NCBI RefSeq assembly: GCF_001552555.1
Contig: NZ_BCRK01000008.1
Coordinates: 1 to 64,000 of the forward strand
Source of the DNA: Nocardiopsis trehalosi NBRC 14201
Lineage (GTDB): Bacteria > Actinomycetota > Actinomycetes > Streptosporangiales > Streptosporangiaceae
Reading direction: 5' to 3'
Length of the DNA stretch: 64,000 nucleotides
Shown here: in pieces, positions 2,776 to 41,816 of the stretch
How positions within the stretch are numbered: position 1 is the stretch's first letter
Layout of the letters: every line of letters starts with the position of its first letter
Position numbers and translations under genes: made by a program
The notes under the pieces: model-generated
Database searches by the model: none
The model's input: the letters and a program-made list of their open reading frames with translations, nothing else
Told to the model about the DNA's origin: nothing

Positions 2776-3849
2776 ATGCCCTTCGCGTCCCCCTCCCTCC
2801 GCCGCGCCGCCCTGTCCGCCGCCCTCCTCCTGGCCGCCACCGGGTGCGGGGCGCGCGAGGACTCCGCCCCCGAGGCCGAGCCGCCCGGCGCGGCGCCCGA
2901 GGAGCAGGAGGTCGGCTTCGACAGCGGGCCCGACACCCTCCACGGCACCCTCGCGGTGCCCCGGGGCGCCGACGGCCCGGTCCCGGCGGCCCTGATCATC
3001 TCCGGCAGCGGCCCCACCGACCGCGACGGCGACAACCCGATGCGGCCCGACGCCGGCACCAACGAGAACTTCGCCCGCGTCCTCGCCGACAACGGGGTGG
3101 CCTCCCTGCGCTACGACAAGCTGGGCAGCGGCGAGACCGGCATGGGTGGACGCGACGAGGACACCCCCGTCGGCTACGACGTGTTCGAGCAGGGGATGGC
3201 CGACGCGTACGCGTTCCTGGCCGACCGCCCGGAGGTCGACCCCGAGCGCCTGCTGGTGCTGGGCCACAGCGAGGGCGCCCTGTTCGCGCTGCGCGCGCCC
3301 GCCGTCGCCGGGGACCATCCGCCGGCCGCCCTGGTGCTGGCCGCTCCCCCGGGGGGCCGCTACCTCGACACGCTCGACCGGCAGCTGACCGACCAGGTGC
3401 GCCTCCAGGAGAGCGCGGGCGCGCTCGACCCGGCCGGCGCCGAGGACCTGCTGTCGGACGCCCGCTACGCCATCTCCGAGGTGCGCGCGGGCAGCGACCT
3501 CGATCCCGACCCCGCCCCCGAGCTGGGCGGCGTGTTCTCGCCCTCGGTGGCGCCGTTCCTGCGCGAGATCGACGCCCTGGACCCGGTGGAGCTGGGGCGG
3601 GGGCTGCCGGAGGGCGTGGCCACCCTGGTGCTGTGGGGCGAGGCCGACACCCAGGTCGCCCGCGAGGACGTCGACCGGCTCATGACCGGCCTGCCCGACG
3701 CCGAACGGGTCGACGTGCCGGACGCCGACCACGTGTTCCGGGTGCAGGACGACGCCCCCGGGGCGGCGGTGCTGGACGCCGACCGCCCGTTCGCGCCCGG
3801 TACCGCCGAGGCCCTCGCCGACTTCCTCCCCGCCGCTCTCGACCGCTGA
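2776..3849 (+). CDS. Alpha/beta-hydrolase, putative lipoprotein
   Basis: The 357-residue product has a lipoprotein-type signal (basic start, then a hydrophobic run ending LLLAATGC with Cys24 as the likely lipidated residue). The mature region is an alpha/beta-hydrolase: the oxyanion region IISGSGPTDRDGDN (about 74-87), nucleophile elbow GHSEG with Ser165, a likely acid in WGEAD, and His in DADHVF near the C-terminus. The layout resembles the YbbA/EstX-like serine hydrolases related to dienelactone and S9-type families, whose substrates vary. The protein is presumably anchored outside the membrane. The start ATG is the first in frame before the signal peptide, with no strong Shine-Dalgarno sequence. 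The substrate cannot be deduced. Confidence 0.85.
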   Translation: MPFASPSLRRAALSAALLLAATGCGAREDSAPEAEPPGAAPEEQEVGFDSGPDTLHGTLAVPRGADGPVPAALIISGSGPTDRDGDNPMRPDAGTNENFARVLADNGVASLRYDKLGSGETGMGGRDEDTPVGYDVFEQGMADAYAFLADRPEVDPERLLVLGHSEGALFALRAPAVAGDHPPAALVLAAPPGGRYLDTLDRQLTDQVRLQESAGALDPAGAEDLLSDARYAISEVRAGSDLDPDPAPELGGVFSPSVAPFLREIDALDPVELGRGLPEGVATLVLWGEADTQVAREDVDRLMTGLPDAERVDVPDADHVFRVQDDAPGAAVLDADRPFAPGTAEALADFLPAALDR

Positions 3850-4005
3850 GGGCCCGGGGCCGCCGGGCGGCTCCGCACACCGCCCGGTGGGTGGTGCGAC
3901 GCGGCCGTGCCCCCCTGAGGGCCGCGCCCGGCGGGTCGGGGCCGATGCTCCCGCCCGGCGGGGGCCGCCTCGGCCCCGGCCTCGGCCCGCCGCGCGGAAC
4001 GGCCG

Positions 4006-26402: not shown

Positions 26403-26927
26403 ATGAAGCAGGATCTCACCGCTCTGTGCTGCGAGTGCGGCGCGAGCCGCAAGGTCAGCGACTACCGCGGCATAGGCGAGGCGCAATCCGCCTACGGGCT
26501 CGCCCGGTGCGTGGTGTGGCGGATGTGCCGGCCCTGCGGCTACCGCACGTACCACGCCTATCTGCGCCGCGACGCCGAACGCGACGAGCTGGAGGACGCG
26601 CTCAACCTGGACGACGCGCTCGCCGCCGAGGCCCTGGACGAGGAGATCGAGCAGCTGCGCCTGTGCGGCATCGACATCGGCCACGCCCCCGTGCCCGCGG
26701 TGTGGGACGGCCAGCCGGTGGGCATGGTCACCCAGCGGCTCACCGACCTGTCGTACGCCATCGTGCTCGACCCCAGCGCCTCGGTGGTGGCCCGGCTCAA
26801 GCTGATCGACCTGATGTGGAACGAGCTGTCCATCGGCGACCACGACGACCGGTGGTACATCCAGCACTCCGACGACGACACCCCCGGGTACGCGGTCCGG
26901 CTGTTCGGCTACCGCGTGCGCCGCTGA
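26403..26927 (+). CDS. Protein with N-terminal zinc-ribbon-like cysteines, unknown function
   Basis: The 174-residue product begins MKQDLTALCCECGASRKV and has a second pair MCRPCGYRTYH about 30 residues later, consistent with a zinc ribbon (residues 9-45). An acidic helix (ERDELEDALNLDDALAAEAL, about 60-79) follows, then a domain with QRLTDLSYAIVLDPSASVVARLKLIDLMWNELS. No known family was recognised. A GGGAGGGGG site precedes the ATG. The upstream gap includes a relatively AT-rich stretch (26290-26345) that could hold its promoter. It converges with the helicase gene ten bases downstream. DNA binding or a host-defence role are possible but not supported. Confidence 0.78.
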   Translation: MKQDLTALCCECGASRKVSDYRGIGEAQSAYGLARCVVWRMCRPCGYRTYHAYLRRDAERDELEDALNLDDALAAEALDEEIEQLRLCGIDIGHAPVPAVWDGQPVGMVTQRLTDLSYAIVLDPSASVVARLKLIDLMWNELSIGDHDDRWYIQHSDDDTPGYAVRLFGYRVRR

Positions 26928-33692: not shown

Positions 33693-33701
33693 GGAGTGGA
33701 G

Positions 33702-33774
33702 TGGAGCTATGGGGATTCGAACCCCAGACCTCCTCCATGCCATGGAGGCGCGCTACCAACTGCGCCATAGCCCC
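33702..33774 (-). tRNA. tRNA-Ala(GGC), copy 1
   Basis: Read on the minus strand, the 73-base gene starts GGGGCTATGGCGCAGTTGGT and ends with TAGCTCC plus A73. The anticodon stem CCTCC/GGAGG encloses loop ATGGCAT, giving anticodon GGC. The acceptor stem has the G3:U70 wobble pair that defines alanine identity. The T-arm GGTTCGAATCC is intact. CCA is not encoded. Identical copies occur at 41070 and 41817. Confidence 0.97.
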
Positions 33775-33863
33775 GTGAACGCAGGGTCCAGTGTATCGGA
33801 CGCGCGGGGGCGGCGCGGACCTGCGCGGACCCCGCCGGCCCCGCGGTCACCGGGCCGGGCGCC

Positions 33864-33901
33864 GCCGTCAGGCCGTCAGGCCGTCAGGCCGTCAGGCCGT
33901 C
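33864..33901. repeat. 8-bp tandem repeat GCCGTCAG, nearly five copies
   Basis: Four full copies of GCCGTCAG and a partial fifth (GCCGTC) run head to tail between tRNA-Ala copy 1 and the YafY regulator gene. The tract lies about 36 bases beyond the regulator stop. It is a likely slippage-prone tract whose copy number may vary between strains. Confidence 0.8.
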
Positions 33902-33936
33902 GCTCGGATCATCGGGCCCCGCTGCCCCCGGCGTGC

Positions 33937-34941
33937 TCAGTCGGCCCTCCCGCCCGCCGCGCGTCGGGCGCGGTGGGACAGGTCGGCGAAGGCGTCCCGC
34001 AGCGCGTCCGGGCCGACCACCTCGATATCGCCGTCGAAGCGCGCCAGTGTCGCCGCGAGGGCGGCCCAGGACCAGGAGCCCATGACCACCCGGGTCCGGG
34101 CCGGGCCGACCTCCTCGACGAGGGCGTCGGCGGCGAACGGCGCCACCCGCGCGGCCGGGAGGTCGAGCACCACCTCGCCGCGGCACGGCCAGGCGTCCAC
34201 GCTCTCGGAGCCCTTGAACCGGGCCGACAGGAAGGCGGCGACGTCGCCCCCCGGCACCTCCCGGGGGACGAAGCGCGGCCCGTTGGGGACGCGGAGCGTC
34301 ATCCGGTCGGCGCGGTGGATGCGCCACTCCCCGGCCTCCGGGTCCCAGCCGACGAGGTACCACCGCCCGCCCCGGACCACGAGGTGGTGGGGCTGCACCC
34401 GGCGCGGCGGCCGGAGGCCCCCGTCGTCCGGCCGGGTCGGCGACCGGTAGTCGAACCGCACCTCCTCCGCGGAGCGGATGGCGGCGCTCAGCGCGAGCAG
34501 CACGCCGGTGTCGGCCTGCGGGCCGCGCCCGCGCCCCGCCGCCTCGACGGCGGTGACCTCCAGGGCGTCGACGCGGCGCCGCAACCGGGCCGGTAGGACC
34601 TGGCGGACCGTCGCCAGCGCGCGGGCGGCGGCCTCTTCGATGCCCGCTCCCGTCCCCACCGCGATCCGCAGCGCCACGGCGAGCGCGACCGCCTGCTCGT
34701 CGTCGAACAGCAGGGGCGGCAGCTCGCTGCCGGCCGCGAGCCGGTACCCGCCGTCGGGCCCCTTGACCGCCGTGACGGGGTAGCCGAGCCCGCGCAGGCG
34801 GTCGACGTCGCGCCGCACCGTGCGTTCGCTCACGCCCAGCCGCTCGGCGAGCAGGTCGCCCGGCCAGTCGCGGCGGACCTGCAGCAGGGACAGCAGCGAG
34901 AGCAGGCGGGCGGAGGTCCCGGACGAGGACGTGGTCGGCAT
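33937..34941 (-). CDS. YafY-family transcriptional regulator (HTH-WYL)
   Basis: The 334-residue protein has a DeoR-like helix-turn-helix at the N-terminus (LLAERLGVSERTVRRDVDRL, about 30-49, then GPDGGYRL), followed by a WYL domain (PHHLVVRGGRWYLVGWDPEAG, about 190-210) and the C-terminal WCX extension. WYL proteins sense ligands or nucleic acid and regulate stress, phage defence or metabolism. It is divergent from the VOC protein gene 116 bases away, which is probably its target and whose product may handle the inducing compound. The ATG start is the first in frame before TSARLLSLLSLLQ. Confidence 0.92.
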   Translation of the reverse strand: MPTTSSSGTSARLLSLLSLLQVRRDWPGDLLAERLGVSERTVRRDVDRLRGLGYPVTAVKGPDGGYRLAAGSELPPLLFDDEQAVALAVALRIAVGTGAGIEEAAARALATVRQVLPARLRRRVDALEVTAVEAAGRGRGPQADTGVLLALSAAIRSAEEVRFDYRSPTRPDDGGLRPPRRVQPHHLVVRGGRWYLVGWDPEAGEWRIHRADRMTLRVPNGPRFVPREVPGGDVAAFLSARFKGSESVDAWPCRGEVVLDLPAARVAPFAADALVEEVGPARTRVVMGSWSWAALAATLARFDGDIEVVGPDALRDAFADLSHRARRAAGGRAD

Positions 34942-35057
34942 GGTCCCCAGGCTGCCACAGGTAGCGGACGATCCCTGTCCGGTACTGCTGCGAGAGTCGC
35001 TGTCGTCGCCGGAGACCTCCGGCGGACCAGACCACTGCTGTGAAGGACCGGACCACC

Positions 35058-35525
35058 ATGTCGGTTAACGCTGTCGCCCACCTGAACTTCCACGGCCAGG
35101 CCCGCGCGGCCCTGGAGTTCTACCAGTCGGTCTTCGGCGGGCGCACCGCCATCGCCACCTACGGCGACTTCGGCATGCCCGCTGAGGCGCCCGGCGCCGC
35201 GAACGTGGTGTTCGGCGAGGTCGTCGCGGACAACGGCTTCCGGGTCATGGCCTACGACGTGCCCGGCCCGGACGCGCCGATCGTCCAGGGTGCCCCCACC
35301 ACGCGCCGCGAGAACGGCGCCACGATCACCGAGGAGCCGTTCTTCCTCTCCGTCCGCGGCGAGACGGTGGAGGAGGTCGAGGCGCTGTGGAAGGGTCTCG
35401 CCGAGGGCGCGACGGTCATCGAGGAGTTCGGGCCGGCCCAGTGGGCGCCGGCCTTCGGGATGCTGACCGACCGCTTCGGCGTCACCTGGATTCTCGACGT
35501 CGCCGCCGAGTACACCCAGTCCTGA
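35058..35525 (+). CDS. VOC family protein (glyoxalase/PhnB-like)
   Basis: The 155-residue product has the single PhnB-type VOC domain: VAHLNFHGQARAALEFYQSVFGG at the start, FFLSVRGETVEEVEALWKGLAEGA in the middle and TDRFGVTWILDV at the end. PhnB-like proteins are metal-dependent folds with mostly unknown substrates; some confer resistance to small molecules. The ATG at 35058 was chosen over 35040 because GAAGGA lies upstream of it. The adjacent divergent WYL regulator suggests inducible expression. An aldo/keto reductase follows after 78 bases on the same strand. Confidence 0.9.
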   Translation: MSVNAVAHLNFHGQARAALEFYQSVFGGRTAIATYGDFGMPAEAPGAANVVFGEVVADNGFRVMAYDVPGPDAPIVQGAPTTRRENGATITEEPFFLSVRGETVEEVEALWKGLAEGATVIEEFGPAQWAPAFGMLTDRFGVTWILDVAAEYTQS

Positions 35526-35603
35526 CGCCCGACCGACCCCCCGCCCGGGGCGCGGCCCGGACCCGCCGCGCCCCGGCGGACCCACGGAGGAGGACCACCC
35601 CTC

Positions 35604-36641
35604 ATGCGAATGCGTCCGCTCGGCCGCACCGGCATCAAGGTCAGCCCCTACACCCTGGGCACCATGCGCTTCGGGCGCGCCGGCAACCCCGACCACGAGG
35701 CGTGCGTGCGGATCATCCACCGCGCGCTGGACGCCGGGATCAACGTCATCGACACCGCCGACGTGTACAGCGGCGACGGCGAGTCCGAGCGGATCGTCGG
35801 GAAGGCGCTGCGCGGCCGCCGAAACGACGTCGTCGTCGCCACCAAGTTCAACGGCCCGATGGGCACGGACCCCAACCGGCGCGGCAACTCCCGCCGCTGG
35901 ATCGTCTCCGCCGTCGAGGCGTCGCTGCGCCGCCTCGGCGTCGACCACATCGACCTCTACCAGATCCACCACCCCGACCCCGATACCGACATCGAGGAGA
36001 CGCTGGGCGCCCTGACCGATCTGCTCGCCGCCGGCAAGGTGCGGGCCATCGGGCACTCCAACCTGCCGGCCGCCGAGATCGTGGAGGCCCAATGGGTGGC
36101 CGAGCGGCGCGGACTGGCCCGGTTCCGGACCGAGCAGCCGCACTACTCGATCCTCAACAGGGGAGCCGAACGCGACGTCTTCCCGGTCTGCCGCCGCTAC
36201 GGTCTGGGCGCCCTGGTGTGGAGCCCGCTGGCGATGGGGCTGCTCACCGGGCGGTTCCGCCGGAGCGGCGGCGAGCCGGTCTCGGCCGACCACGTGCAGT
36301 GGGTCCCCCGGCACATGACCGATGAGCGCAAGCGCGACGCGGTCGAGGCCCTGCTGCCGGTCGCCGAGGAGGCCGGGCTCCCCCTGGCCCACCTCGCGCT
36401 GGCGTTCGCCATCGCCCATCCCGCGGTGACCTCGGCGATCATCGGGCCGCGCACCATGGAGCAGCTGGACGACCTGCTGGCCGGGGCCGGCACCGTCCTG
36501 GACGACGGCGTGCTCGACCGCATCGACGCCGTCGTCCCGCCGGGGACCGACCTCGGCCCGATCGACGTGGCCTACGTGCCGCCGCACGTCCAGGACGCGG
36601 ACCTGCGCCGCCGCACCGCGGGCGACCGCGCAGCGGCGTGA
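35604..36641 (+). CDS. Aldo/keto reductase
   Basis: The 345-residue oxidoreductase has the AKR barrel and catalytic tetrad Asp50, Tyr55 (DTADVYSG), Lys81 (ATKF) and His122 (YQIHHPD). The NADPH-binding C-terminal portion reads AFAIAHPAVTSAIIGPRTMEQL. It reduces aldehydes or ketones; length and the N-terminal RPLGRTGIKVSPYTLGTMRFG place it with AKR11/12-like bacterial enzymes. A strong GGAGGAGG precedes the ATG. It probably shares a transcript with the VOC gene, and a strong hairpin follows the stop. Together the three neighbours look like a small detoxification unit; the substrate is not known. Confidence 0.93.
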   Translation: MRMRPLGRTGIKVSPYTLGTMRFGRAGNPDHEACVRIIHRALDAGINVIDTADVYSGDGESERIVGKALRGRRNDVVVATKFNGPMGTDPNRRGNSRRWIVSAVEASLRRLGVDHIDLYQIHHPDPDTDIEETLGALTDLLAAGKVRAIGHSNLPAAEIVEAQWVAERRGLARFRTEQPHYSILNRGAERDVFPVCRRYGLGALVWSPLAMGLLTGRFRRSGGEPVSADHVQWVPRHMTDERKRDAVEALLPVAEEAGLPLAHLALAFAIAHPAVTSAIIGPRTMEQLDDLLAGAGTVLDDGVLDRIDAVVPPGTDLGPIDVAYVPPHVQDADLRRRTAGDRAAA

Positions 36642-36709
36642 GGCGCGTCGGCGCGGCGTGACCGCCCCGGAGCGCCCGGCTCCAGGGCCTCCGTCCGGTG
36701 CGGAAAGCG

Positions 36710-36740
36710 GAAGGGCGGCCCGGTGACCGGGCCGCCCTTC
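36710..36740. terminator. Perfect 14-bp hairpin after aldo/keto reductase
   Basis: GAAGGGCGGCCCGG (36710-36723) pairs exactly with CCGGGCCGCCCTTC (36727-36740) around TGA. It lies 69 bases after the reductase stop and marks the edge between the typical GC-rich genes and the accessory cassette. Confidence 0.72.
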
Positions 36741-36745
36741 GCGGG

Positions 36746-36898
36746 ACGACGCCCTTCCACCTCGTCGGCGGAGCGCTCTACGGCTCCGATGACGCGCGGA
36801 CCCATCCGCTGCCCGCCGGAGACCACCCGAACACCGCGTCTCCCTTCGTGCTGGGAGAGCGGTTCGCGGACCTCGCCCTCGCGGACGGCGGGGCGGTG
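36746..36898 (+). pseudogene. Possible gene remnant resembling FAD-monooxygenase C-terminus
   Basis: A short open stretch reads FHLVGGALYGSDDARTHPLP, then FVLGERFADLALADGGAV. The order (aromatic, D/H-P-L, then GxRxxDLxLxDG) resembles the start of the thioredoxin-like C-terminal domain of aromatic-ring FAD monooxygenases. It has no start codon or ribosome site of its own and ends against the next gene, so if real it is a fragment left at the cassette boundary. Chance resemblance cannot be excluded. Confidence 0.25.
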
Positions 36899-38104
36899 TC
36901 ACACCGCGGCGGCCAGCCGACGTGCGATGCCGGTGGTGAGCCCGTCGGGACGCCCGTGCGTCGTGAGCACGAGCCGGAGCCGTCCGCCGTGGGTGAGGAC
37001 GCCGAGGATGCGTTCATCGTCGACCTGGGTGGTCATCGTCGGTCCCCAGATCGCGGCGGCGGTGGACGTGTCCTCTCCCGAGACGCCGAGATTGGTGATC
37101 TCCAGGTCGGCTGACGTCGCGGCGAGCATCGCCGCCTCCGCCTCCGCGGCATCGCGGGGGTGGAGCGACGCGAGCATCGCGACGGCCTCTCGTGCGTGGT
37201 CGCGGGCGAACCGCAGCTGTGCGGTCGCGTCACGCGCCCGTGACCAGAGGCCGTCGTCCGCTGACGCACGGAACGTCACGGTGGTCGCGACGAAGCGGTT
37301 GACGAGGTCGTCGTCGAGGCCCGAGGAGCGGAGATCGATGGGTACGTTGATGCGGACCTGCTCTGCTCCCGGACGTTCGAGCAGTTCCAGCGCACCGGCC
37401 GCGCAGAGCGCGCCCTGCACCGTCGAGTCGTGCTCGCGTGCCGTGGTGCGAAGGCGTTCCGTGGTGAGCTGGTCCAGCTCGGCGATCTCGATGCCGGGTG
37501 CCGCGGCGTCGAACGGTCGGAGCGTTCCAGGTTCGGGCACCGGCTGTTCGGCCGACCCGTCGTCGACGGAGGGCGCCGCTGCCGGGGGCAGACGGTGCAG
37601 GAGATCCTCCTGCGCGTCCGGCACCGGGCGCGGGTGCAGCGTTCGGCCGGCGAGCAGGGCGAGCAGGTCGCGAGCCGCCCGCAGCGCTCCGCGTCCATCC
37701 GCGATCTGGTGGGAGAACGTCAGCAGCACGACCGACCCGTGCTTCCCGCCGTCGTCGGTGAGCAGCGTCGCCCGCGCCAGCGGGCTGCCGGCGGGGTCGA
37801 TGGGGCGGGTCTGTTCGGTGGCGGCCTCGGTGCGCCAGTCGCCGCCCTCCACGTGCCTGACGGGGATGGTGGCGTCTGCGCGATGGAAGGCCGGACGTTC
37901 ACCACCTCGGTCGATGCGGGCCGCCAGCAGCGGATGCGCGGCTTGCAGCTCGGCCAGCGCCTGCGTCAGTCGGCCAGGCGGAACGGACGAAGCCAGCTCG
38001 ATGGCGAGCGAGAATTGCACCGGGTTGCGGGAGATGTACAGGTCGATGATGTGCTCGAACGCTCCGAGCGGACGCAGGATGGAGGATGCGTGGGACGTGT
38101 CGAT
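36899..38104 (-). CDS. Condensation/PapA-like acyltransferase
   Basis: The product (401 residues from the start I prefer) belongs to the chloramphenicol-acetyltransferase-like superfamily that includes polyketide-associated PapA proteins, NRPS condensation domains and alcohol O-acetyltransferases. The catalytic motif is HQIADG (HxxxDG type), and RPLGAFEHIIDLYISRNPVQ is the usual N-terminal start. Later segments (NVPIDLRSSGLDDDLVNRFV, ITNLGVSG) match the second half of the fold. No ATG or GTG is well placed. The best ribosome site (GGAG, six bases away) precedes an ATC at 38104, while the nearest in-frame ATG (38203) lies in a broken TetR gene. It is next to an FAD oxidase and would acylate an alcohol or amine. 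Base composition is less GC-biased than that of its neighbours. Confidence 0.78.
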   Translation of the reverse strand: MDTSHASSILRPLGAFEHIIDLYISRNPVQFSLAIELASSVPPGRLTQALAELQAAHPLLAARIDRGGERPAFHRADATIPVRHVEGGDWRTEAATEQTRPIDPAGSPLARATLLTDDGGKHGSVVLLTFSHQIADGRGALRAARDLLALLAGRTLHPRPVPDAQEDLLHRLPPAAAPSVDDGSAEQPVPEPGTLRPFDAAAPGIEIAELDQLTTERLRTTAREHDSTVQGALCAAGALELLERPGAEQVRINVPIDLRSSGLDDDLVNRFVATTVTFRASADDGLWSRARDATAQLRFARDHAREAVAMLASLHPRDAAEAEAAMLAATSADLEITNLGVSGEDTSTAAAIWGPTMTTQVDDERILGVLTHGGRLRLVLTTHGRPDGLTTGIARRLAAAV

Positions 38105-38235
38105 GGGATTCTCCGTGTCGTCGTGAGGTGATGCGCGGCGGGGCCGGGCGGCCCACCGCCAGGCGAGCGGGTCGATCGGCCCCGCGCCGGCCTCGGCGGG
38201 CATGGGGTGCGGGCAGGCGAGGAGGCGCTCGGCAG

Positions 38236-38455
38236 AGAGTCCGGTCGGACGTCGTGGACCGGGTCGTGGGGCGGCTCGACCTCGTGCGGGCCCGCGACCA
38301 CGGTGTCCACCCGGACCCGTTGCATCGAGAAGAAGTGTCGCGATGAGCCTGTGCTCGCCCCCGCTCGCGCGGAGACGGCGCACACACCGCGCCACCGGGT
38401 CCTCCCTGAATAGGGTCGCGGCAGCGTTCACGGTCGCGTCTCGTGCCGCGACGCG
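38236..38455 (-). pseudogene. TetR regulator remnant, N-terminal half, frameshifted
   Basis: Frame one reads AARDATVNAAATLFREDPVA and then shifts; the next frame reads AVSARAGASTGSSRHFFSMQ, then RVRVDTVVAG. Together they parallel the intact TetR encoded at 40184-40816 (TRDKILIAAATMLGENPTAR, AVAARAQVSTGSLRHFFPTQ, RALIDTVIAG) across the whole helix-turn-helix. A one-base loss near 38386 explains the shift. The remnant lies just upstream of the acyltransferase and divergent from the FAD oxidase, where a functional TetR would be expected. Confidence 0.82.
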
Positions 38456-38487
38456 GTCTCGCCCGTCCTACCCCTCTCGCTTCTAAT

Positions 38488-38502
38488 ACAGTGTGCTACT
38501 GT
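38488..38502. promoter_or_regulatory. Palindromic operator candidate in cassette promoter region
   Basis: ACAGTGTGCTACTGT is a palindrome with five-base arms and a five-base centre, in a locally AT-richer stretch between the minus-strand TetR remnant and the FAD oxidase. Position and spacing fit a TetR-dimer operator controlling the divergent promoters. No matching copy was found upstream of the intact TetR at 40816. Confidence 0.55.
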
Positions 38503-38585
38503 TCCGCGGACAAACTATCACGGCGTACTAGAGACGGTGTGCGGAGACCTCCGGTCCCCGGCTTCGAGCTCGGCGTCTCCACCGC

Positions 38586-38648
38586 GGGCACGCGGTGGAC
38601 GACGCGCACGTCCGACCGGCCCACAAGCCGTCCGACGCCCCCGACGCG
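38586..38648 (+). pseudogene. TetR fragment (ligand-domain part) in opposite orientation
   Basis: The plus-strand bases 38592-38612 match the coding strand of the intact TetR (minus strand, 40495-40475) at 19 of 21 positions. The translation AVDDAHVRPAHKPSDA parallels AVYDAYVASAPSDDD of the intact protein. This piece points opposite to the N-terminal remnant at 38236-38455, so the old gene was not only frameshifted but rearranged. Homology outside this core is too weak to delimit by eye. Confidence 0.55.
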
Positions 38649-38724
38649 GCCGCCGCGAACGGCGGTCGGCCGAGCACCTGCACCAGTCGCCGCAGCCGCG
38701 GCATACGAACGAGCAGGAGACACC

Positions 38725-40089
38725 ATGCAGGAACGCCGCCACTGGGACACGCTGGCGAGCACGCTGACCCGATCGATCGAGGGGCGGGTGATCCAGCCCG
38801 CGGACGAGTCCTTCGAGTCGTCCGCCGCTCTATGGAGCGCGCACCCGACGCGGCGCCCGGCGCTCATCGCACAGGTGGCGAACGCCGCGGATGTGCGGCG
38901 CGTGCTGCGGAGCGTCCCCCTTGAGGTGCCGGTAAGCGTGCGCGGCCGAGGTCATGACTGGGCGGGCAGAGCGCACGCCGAGGGTGGCGTCACGCTCGAT
39001 CTCTCCCGGATGCGCGGCGTCCAGATCGATGCGGACGCACGGACCGCCCGCGTGCAAGGCGGAGCGCGGCTGGACGATCTGATCGACGCCGCCGGCGAGC
39101 ACGGTCTCGTCGCGGCGGTCGGCACCGTCAACGAGGTCGGCGTCACCGGGCTCACCCTCGGCGGAGGATACGGCCCCTATCTCGGCACCCTCGGTCTCGC
39201 CGCAGACGCCATCGTCTCGGCCGAGGTGGTACTGGCCGACGGGTCGATCACGACCGCGTCGGCGGAGGAGAACGCCGACCTCCTGTGGGCGCTCCGCGGC
39301 GCGGGCGGGAACTTCGGCGTCGTCACCTCGCTCGATATCGCACTGGCGGAGCTGCCCGGCATGCTCGCCGGTGTCATCGCGTTCAGCACCACCGAGCTGC
39401 GGCAGGTGCTCACCGCCCTCGACCGACTCCTCCCCACCGTCCCGGACCGGCTCGCGATCAGTCCCGCGATCGCCGGCGGTCCCGACGGCGGCCCGGCGCT
39501 GCTCCTGGCGGTGCACTGGAGCGGCGACGCGGATGAGGGCGCCCCGTGGGTGCGGGAGGTCGAACGGCTCGGGACGCCCCTCATGTCCACGGTCGGCCCG
39601 GCCACACCGGCACAAGCCCTCCACGCGCTCGACGGGATGTTCCCCGCGGGACGGCACTACACACTCCGCACCGCGTCCCTCACCCGCCTGACACCCGCTG
39701 TCGCCGAGGTGCTGGCGGACGGCGAGCGGCGCCGCACGTCGCCACTGAGCGCCGTGAACATCCATCACTTCCACGGGGCCGCCACCCGCGTCAGCGCCGA
39801 CCACTCGGCGTGGGCGCTTCGGGAGCCGCACCTCATGGTCGAGGTCATCGCGGCCACCACGGATGCCGAGGGACACGACGAGCAGATCGCGTGGGCGGAT
39901 CACCTGCTCGACGCGTTGCGACCGCTCGCCCTCTCCGCCGCCTACCCGAACCTCCTCGCACCCGGCGACGACGAACGCGCAGCGGGCGTCTACGGCGACA
40001 ACCTCACCCGCCTGCACGCCGTGAAGCGCGACGTGGACCCGGCAGGCCGGTTCTCCGGCATTCCCATCGGGATCCGCGGCCGACTGTAG
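38725..40089 (+). CDS. FAD-linked oxidase, berberine bridge enzyme (BBE)-like
   Basis: The 454-residue flavoprotein has the PCMH/FAD-binding-4 fold. His77 in RGRGHDWAG is the likely 8-alpha-histidyl attachment point. TGLTLGGGYGPYLGTLGLAADA (143-163) forms the second FAD loop, and the position where bicovalent members carry Cys is replaced (VGTVNEVGV), so a single covalent bond is expected. The C-terminal BBE motif reads AAYPNLLAPGDDERAAGVYG, then NLTRLHAVKRDVDP. Such enzymes oxidise alcohols, sugars or alkaloid-type C-N bonds. The ATG at 38725 follows AGGAGACACC; upstream in-frame sequence is TetR remnant. It converges with an intact TetR gene. Confidence 0.92.
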   Translation: MQERRHWDTLASTLTRSIEGRVIQPADESFESSAALWSAHPTRRPALIAQVANAADVRRVLRSVPLEVPVSVRGRGHDWAGRAHAEGGVTLDLSRMRGVQIDADARTARVQGGARLDDLIDAAGEHGLVAAVGTVNEVGVTGLTLGGGYGPYLGTLGLAADAIVSAEVVLADGSITTASAEENADLLWALRGAGGNFGVVTSLDIALAELPGMLAGVIAFSTTELRQVLTALDRLLPTVPDRLAISPAIAGGPDGGPALLLAVHWSGDADEGAPWVREVERLGTPLMSTVGPATPAQALHALDGMFPAGRHYTLRTASLTRLTPAVAEVLADGERRRTSPLSAVNIHHFHGAATRVSADHSAWALREPHLMVEVIAATTDAEGHDEQIAWADHLLDALRPLALSAAYPNLLAPGDDERAAGVYGDNLTRLHAVKRDVDPAGRFSGIPIGIRGRL

Positions 40090-40183
40090 ACGGCGGCGTC
40101 CGGAATGCCATGGATGTTCGGGATCGCGACGGCGGGCGGCGGACCCGCGGTCGCGCCGGAACGATCGATCTCCGGGTGGGTGG

Positions 40184-40816
40184 TCAGGGTGCCGTGGCGG
40201 GGCTCGGGGTTCCGGCCAGCGCGGACGTCACGGCGTGGACGGCGAGGCGGAGTGTCTCCGTTTCGGTCTCGACCCGCACCGCGTCAGCGGGTAGGGCGCG
40301 TTCCGTCATGAGGCCGGTGACCACTGTCATGAGGAACCGCGCCCGTTGCTCGATCGCGCCCGCGGGAATCGCGCCCTCTTCGACGAGAGTGGCCAACCAT
40401 CGCTCGATGCGGTGGCGGCCCATGCGCTCGAGCGCGAGGTAGGTGGTGGTGTCGTCGTCGGAGGGAGCAGAAGCGACGTACGCGTCGTACACCGCCCCCC
40501 AGGCCCGTCGCGCACGGTCGCCGGTGCCCACTTGCGCGAGGAGCAGGCGCAGACCCGTGATGAGACGCTCGTTCGGCGTCCTCGTGTGGTCGTTGATCGG
40601 GTCGTCGGGAATGTCGACGTCGTAGAGCCCGGCGATCACCGTGTCGATGAGGGCCCGCTGCGTGGGAAAGAAGTGCCGCAACGAGCCCGTGCTCACCTGC
40701 GCGCGGGCGGCGACCGCGCGAACGCTCAAGCGCGCGGTCGGGTTCTCGCCGAGCATCGTCGCCGCGGCGATCAGGATCTTGTCACGCGTCCCCGGCTCCT
40801 TCGGCGCAGCGTCCAT
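40184..40816 (-). CDS. TetR family transcriptional regulator
   Basis: The 210-residue protein starts MDAAPKEPGTRDKILIAAAT, with the helix-turn-helix at VRAVAARAQVSTGSLRHFFP (about 32-51) and a helical ligand domain after residue 60. CGGGAGGAGGGCC precedes the ATG at 40816, which is far stronger than any upstream start. It converges with the FAD oxidase and is the full-length counterpart of the two TetR fragments at 38.2-38.65 kb. It probably regulates the oxidase and acyltransferase. A short ACAACCTTGT palindrome just upstream (about 40836) might be an autoregulatory site but is weak. Confidence 0.93.
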   Translation of the reverse strand: MDAAPKEPGTRDKILIAAATMLGENPTARLSVRAVAARAQVSTGSLRHFFPTQRALIDTVIAGLYDVDIPDDPINDHTRTPNERLITGLRLLLAQVGTGDRARRAWGAVYDAYVASAPSDDDTTTYLALERMGRHRIERWLATLVEEGAIPAGAIEQRARFLMTVVTGLMTERALPADAVRVETETETLRLAVHAVTSALAGTPSPATAP

Positions 40817-41009
40817 GGTGGCCCTCCTCCCGACAACCTTGTACCACCATCCGCTGCGGCCGGTGCGGGTCGCGGCCGATCGTGTCCGGTCCACGTACCG
40901 GCCCGGTGACGTCTACCGTCACTCGGTCTGCTCCGGCCGGCACTCCAAGCGCGCCGCCCGCGGCGCCCGTGCGACCAGGCCAACGCCCTCAACCGGGCCC
41001 AGAACGCCG

Positions 41010-41061
41010 ACAAGGCCCGAACCCGGGCCAACGATTCCGTTGGCAGGGGTTCGAGCCTTGT
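41010..41061 (-). terminator. Long two-tier hairpin downstream of tRNA-Ala copy 2
   Basis: ACAAGGC-CGAACCC with inner GCCAACG (41010-41033) mirrors CGTTGGC, GGGTTCG and GCCTTGT (41038-41061) around an ATTC loop, with only three unpaired positions per arm. It starts eight bases after the tRNA on the minus strand and should fold into a 52-base stem-loop terminator or processing signal. Confidence 0.75.
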
Positions 41062-41069
41062 GCGCCGGG

Positions 41070-41142
41070 TGGAGCTATGGGGATTCGAACCCCAGACCTC
41101 CTCCATGCCATGGAGGCGCGCTACCAACTGCGCCATAGCCCC
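41070..41142 (-). tRNA. tRNA-Ala(GGC), copy 2
   Basis: All 73 bases are identical to the copy at 33702, including anticodon GGC, the G3:U70 pair and TAGCTCC acceptor end. Flanking DNA on both sides differs, so it is a separate gene. It lies between the TetR gene and the GroES-like gene. Confidence 0.97.
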
Positions 41143-41590: not shown

Positions 41591-41782
41591 CCCACCAGCC
41601 CCAGGGGGTTCGCTCCCGGCCGCAGGGGGTGTCCTCCCAGGGATTCCGGGGGTCGTCCCCCGGGGGAAACGACCAGACGACCGCGCGAGGCGGACCAGCC
41701 CGGCACCAGCCACAGGGGGTGTCCTCCCGGGGGTCCGGGGGTTGTCCCCCGGGCAAAATGACGAGACGACCGCGCGAGGCGG
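41591..41782. repeat. Degenerate tandem repeat, period about 90 bases
   Basis: CGCAGGGGGTGTCCTCCC (from 41621) and CACAGGGGGTGTCCTCCC (from 41711) each continue with GGGGGT-GTCCCCCGGG, then GACGACCGCGCGAGGCGG, ending at 41693 and 41782. A shorter copy of the first block starts at 41591. The internal GGGGG/CCCCC runs give each unit its own hairpin. It lies between the GroES-like gene and tRNA-Ala copy 3. Confidence 0.8.
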
Positions 41783-41805: not shown

Positions 41806-41816
41806 CCGGAGTCGAG

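Follow-up and report, generated by a model that had tools for sequence, protein, structure and literature searches.

The 64,000-nucleotide stretch of Nocardiopsis trehalosi NBRC 14201 analysed here (the window) carries what is left of a tetR gene, its degraded 5' half, which still adjoins the operators of its own family. The locus is probably a decayed tetR-acyltransferase unit inside a decaying foreign cassette, and an intact TetR of the same subfamily, encoded on the far side of a neighbouring oxidase gene, would act in trans at the operators of the relic. The features on which this reading is based are the following:

33701-33774: tRNA-Ala(GGC), left bound of a variable interval (77/77 identical repeat)
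36731-36895 (+): SGNH/GDSL hydrolase gene reduced to a 3' stub of ~56 codons, at the left edge of the cassette
36899-38104 (-): PapA5-like/condensation-fold acyltransferase (weak PapA/Condensation matches, start-codon alignment)
38181-38443 (-): tetR relic, TetR codons ~6-93 (nhmmer DNA profile, BLASTN to the intact gene, frame check)
38484-38498 (no strand): predicted family operator 1, TAATACAGTGTGCTA, consensus TAGCACACTGTGCTA
38516-38530 (no strand): predicted family operator 2, TATCACGGCGTACTA
38592-38612 (+): chance match to tetR, not a part of the relic
38725-40089 (+): BBE-like FAD-linked oxidase
40184-40816 (-): intact TetR, same subfamily as the relic
41068-41142 (-): tRNA-Ala(GGC), right border (ARAGORN)

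The tetR relic

When the minus strand of 38.1-38.7 kb was aligned with the intact tetR (40184-40816) by pairwise BLASTN, 136/198 bases were identical, with one 5-base gap (E 9e-19). Furthermore, 45 TetR relatives, namely homologues from other genomes and the window's intact gene, were used to build a codon-aligned DNA profile, which was searched with nhmmer against the 64 kb window. The relic, 38439-38181 (-), scored 99 bits (E 2.4e-30), second to the intact gene with 475 bits, and the third match reached 9 bits. A first-pass annotation of this DNA had read a TetR helix-turn-helix with a frameshift on this strand, parallel to the intact TetR, and both searches bear this out. The profile carries the relic past the limit of 38236 given at that time, to 38181.

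The relic spans positions 17-278 of the 597 of the profile, which take in the helix-turn-helix and the beginning of the ligand domain. Neither the profile alignment nor the frame check found any trace of the C-terminal ~115 codons anywhere near. The frame is damaged by a 5-base deletion at ~38386 and a 2-base insertion at ~38250, which together restore it. A TAG stands in the frame at 38470-38468, and the first possible start, GTG 38431, is already within the conserved part. The relic is a TetR homologue by the DNA profile, yet it has no complete uninterrupted regulator reading frame. Pfam gave no match on the translated segment because the frame is broken, and this is why the DNA profile was needed. 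The recognition helix is also altered (STGSSRHFFSMQ vs STGSLRHFFPTQ in the subfamily). Compared with functional genes, differences reach 0.41-0.49 at third codon positions, 0.25-0.30 at first and 0.19-0.24 at second positions. This concentration at third positions suggests that selection maintained the relic for the greater part of its existence and that its decay came afterwards.

As the assembly is a draft in 368 contigs, the frameshifts could be thought of as assembly errors in a functional tetR. Nevertheless, such errors would not account for the joint loss of a start codon, a C-terminal half and conserved recognition-helix residues, which makes this explanation extremely improbable.

On the plus strand, 38592-38612 had been taken as a later piece of the same gene, and the opposite orientations as the sign of an inversion. 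The match itself exists, at 19/21 bases of the intact coding strand, but the same level is reached at two unrelated places of the 64 kb window, 26865-26885 (+) and 3482-3502 (-), and with the family profile the segment obtains -7 bits, an E-value of about 160 for the window, which is noise. The count of equal matches and the profile score rule it out as a TetR piece; the match arose by chance, the DNA being GC-rich, so there is neither a gene spread over both strands nor an inversion. When 38.1-38.7 kb and 40.18-40.82 kb are compared as nucleotides, then, the minus strand is similar and the plus strand remains at noise level.

Predicted operators and the intact TetR

The palindrome TAGCAC-N3-GTGCTA recurs upstream of the tetR genes of the relatives. 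Allowing up to 3 mismatches and up to 200 bp upstream, 41/43 tetR genes have at least one copy and most have two or three, against a chance expectation of ~0.06 per gene obtained from shuffles. The exceptions are the intact gene of the window and one other. An operator matrix was then made with the 69 best sites that precede tetR in the relatives; the window itself contributed none. Its best and second-best scores in the window, 28.3 bits for operator 1 (38484) and 23.8 bits for operator 2 (38516), fall between the relic and the oxidase, upstream of the relic, and the third-best score in the 64 kb is 7.7 bits. On the other hand, no operator was found upstream of the intact tetR, where the maximum across 40817-41067 is -10 bits; the two sites beside the relic are the only ones of matrix grade near that gene. 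That a tetR decayed beside its operator, as the first-pass annotation had supposed, is well supported by these sequence scores, and gene order and operator positions agree with its view that the intact TetR is located beyond the oxidase from the decayed gene.

Among the papers searched, literal searches with the full motif returned no TetR paper, and the search with the half-site was unspecific; a TetR pseudogene is mentioned in a single unrelated study. TAGCAC-N3-GTGCTA is a predicted, testable operator for a widespread actinobacterial TetR subfamily and for the membrane protein that usually accompanies it.

The intact TetR matches the helix-turn-helix family PF00440 above the gathering score (E 2.1e-7, 31 bits vs a cut-off of 24). 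For the C-terminal domain PF13977 the score is 22.5 bits vs a cut-off of 27, and the alignment to the orthologues, which are 68-78% identical, is full-length. The recognition helix, STGSLRHFFPTQ, is identical between the intact TetR and these orthologues.

Protein trees were built with the relic read through and an X at the break, and tests were run on 199 columns and on the 90 columns of the relic. The relic and the intact gene fall within one subfamily of 14 rows (support 100/98) and are only 2 kb apart, which would be expected if the cassette had duplicated its regulator in place and the intact TetR were the daughter of the relic, as was first proposed. However, their sisterhood is rejected (p-AU 0.020 with 199 columns and 0.035 with 90), for a relic whose tree position comes from 88 residues of a fast-evolving row on a long branch. 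The nearest relatives of the intact gene are instead orthologues in other families: it belongs to a clade of 8 members with TetRs of Goekera, Isoptericola, Actinotalea and Microbacterium. Alignment column 41 is Gln in all 8 and Gly in the relic and the other relatives. Hence, duplication within the cassette is unlikely. An older duplication giving both genes is possible, since an event before the split of Goekera, Isoptericola and Microbacterium would fit a grouping of the relic with the 8-row clade, which the test does not reject (p-AU 0.40-0.46). From these trees, the relic and the intact gene seem to represent two ancient lineages of the subfamily that were brought together, not a recent copy and its original.

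The genome also encodes a second intact paralogue (G000 C1:65419-66018, locus L002), 55% identical, which keeps the subfamily helix and has its own operators upstream; apart from these and the pair in the window, no tetR-linked site of this type was seen in the genome. The gene divergent from it encodes a membrane protein of another kind, which probably spans the membrane several times. This paralogue is the main rival for the operator sites of the window: it could serve them, leaving the intact TetR of the window, which has no operator next to itself, to control something else. Such an arrangement is improbable, as regulator genes usually adjoin their targets, the intact gene has no matrix-grade sites nearby other than the two operators of the window, and the TetR of Microbacterium pullorum, 72% identical to that of the window, shares a cluster with operators in an acyltransferase/oxidase gap.

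The preferred reading is that the intact TetR of the window represses the oxidase in trans through the operators of the relic, because it keeps the recognition helix, lacks an operator of its own and has the pair of the relic as its closest sites. From this we infer that it would bind both sites and would also repress the remaining acyltransferase transcript, without autoregulation, until a ligand releases it.

The acyltransferase, the oxidase and the cassette

The acyltransferase scores below all the curated cut-offs: 21.6 bits for PapA_C (cut-off 30), 21.1 for Condensation (30.6) and 39.8 for NCBIfam PapA5 (396). Judging from these scores, it is a distant relative of the PapA/condensation families. 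Its translation presents the catalytic motif HxxxDG as HQIADG and deviates at 4/120 columns that are invariant in the others, as functional copies do. The start position is different: 38104-38102 is ATC, aligned with ATG, ATG, GTG and ATG in four relatives, and it is still preceded by the Shine-Dalgarno sequence GGAG at normal spacing. A single ORF, 38431-36899, runs through the relic and the acyltransferase. With an ATC start and a frame that stays open through the relic, automatic annotation would extend the enzyme into it.

Since the start of the acyltransferase is ATC, translation could begin in the relic instead, at GTG 38431 or ATG 38204, and the relic would then serve the enzyme as a captured N-terminal leader, with a chimera being made. 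The deletion and the insertion jointly keep the frame of the ORF, and the enzyme part is conserved, both in line with this idea. Nevertheless, on reading the sequence no clear Shine-Dalgarno precedes either codon, GGAG is retained at normal distance from the ATC, and long open frames turn up often in DNA of 74% GC, which leaves the openness of this one with little meaning; a leader of this kind is very unlikely. A combined scenario, in which the regulator was replaced in place, one repressor lineage taking over in trans the operators of a dead one while the dead frame is being absorbed as an enzyme leader, is also rather unlikely.

The oxidase presents the FAD_binding_4 domain (PF01565, E 1.3e-25) and is transcribed divergently from the relic and the acyltransferase, the same divergent layout being found in M. 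pullorum. At the left edge of the cassette, tblastn with the SGNH hydrolase of M. pullorum against the whole window revealed the hydrolase stub (46% over 56 aa, E 1e-7). The loci of M. pullorum, Micromonospora okii C13 and L119 carry this gene in full. The stub lies directly downstream of an aldo/keto reductase gene and is convergent with the acyltransferase.

The codon usage of the cassette is foreign: third-position GC is 0.848 in the acyltransferase, 0.881 in the oxidase and 0.872 in the intact TetR, vs 0.94-0.98 in the neighbours. The tRNA-Ala genes at 33701 and 41068 enclose 7.3 kb, with the cassette and three native-looking genes. The relative G021 has two tRNA-Ala genes only ~190 bp apart beside the same Cpn10-like gene, and after them comes a homologue of the gene that flanks the window's tRNA on the left. 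This short spacing indicates that the interval is variable, and 33701-41142 is likely an insertion hot spot. A third tRNA-Ala(GGC) gene is located at 41816, and between the Cpn10-like gene and tRNA-Ala there is a direct repeat of ~78 bp, 87% identical (41616-41693 and 41706-41782).

Taken together, the cassette would have been acquired horizontally into the interval between tandem tRNA-Ala genes. Its ancestral unit would have had a tetR heading a leftward tetR-acyltransferase pair, divergent from the FAD oxidase, with the two palindromic operators in between. It now seems to be decaying, with the hydrolase reduced to a stub, the first tetR dead and the acyltransferase without a canonical start, while the oxidase and the second TetR are intact; the order of these losses is our reconstruction from the sequences. 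The cassette may be considered a small, clear case of the decay of acquired genes, in which the binding sites of a dead regulator persist and can pass to a related one.

Comparison with related loci and known systems

The relatives searched included no genome of the same genus. In none of the genomes examined does an intact TetR stand precisely in the gap between the oxidase and a still intact acyltransferase, the position that the first-pass annotation had proposed to compare. The ancestral order was therefore combined from two genomes.

The first is M. pullorum (L076), which likewise has a divergent acyltransferase/oxidase pair, 68% and 75% identical to the genes of the window, with two operators in the gap as in the window. 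In contrast, this gap is ~130 bp long and contains neither a tetR nor a relic, whereas the window has a relic, and the acyltransferase starts with ATG where the window has ATC. The M. pullorum TetR is located 4 kb from the gap and has two further operators upstream. The second is M. okii C13 (L077), where an operator, a TetR and an N-terminal acyltransferase remnant follow one another in the order and direction of the operators, relic and acyltransferase of the window. There, however, it is the TetR that is intact and the acyltransferase that is a remnant, and the oxidase is 10 kb off.

Among the other acyltransferase loci, TetR relics adjoining an acyltransferase were found only in M. okii L078 and, faintly, in L086. 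The former (3668-3988, +) is a C-terminal TetR half of this subfamily that converges on an intact acyltransferase, with a shortened membrane-protein gene diverging from it; the latter is a trace at 8214-8116. In L116, two weak TetR matches lie kilobases from the acyltransferase.

Within its own subfamily, TetR is usually paired with a divergent membrane protein of ~218 aa without Pfam or NCBIfam match, which is present at 31/43 loci (e.g. L076 and Goekera L053), M. pullorum L076 1314-1967 (-) being among them. The window shares with these systems the 68-78% identity of its intact TetR to the closest orthologues, the recognition helix and an operator near the cassette. It differs from them in having no operator before the intact tetR and no membrane-protein gene; in the window, neither this usual divergent partner nor a remnant of it was found.

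Regarding the TetR/AcrR one-component repressors (PF00440) with divergent autoregulated genes, the locus has in common with them the N-terminal helix-turn-helix and a palindromic operator between divergent genes, and relatives in this group also carry two or more operator copies before tetR. The contrast lies in the fate of the regulators, as in the window the tetR nearest to the operators is dead, and the intact member, which has no operator of its own, stands beyond the oxidase.
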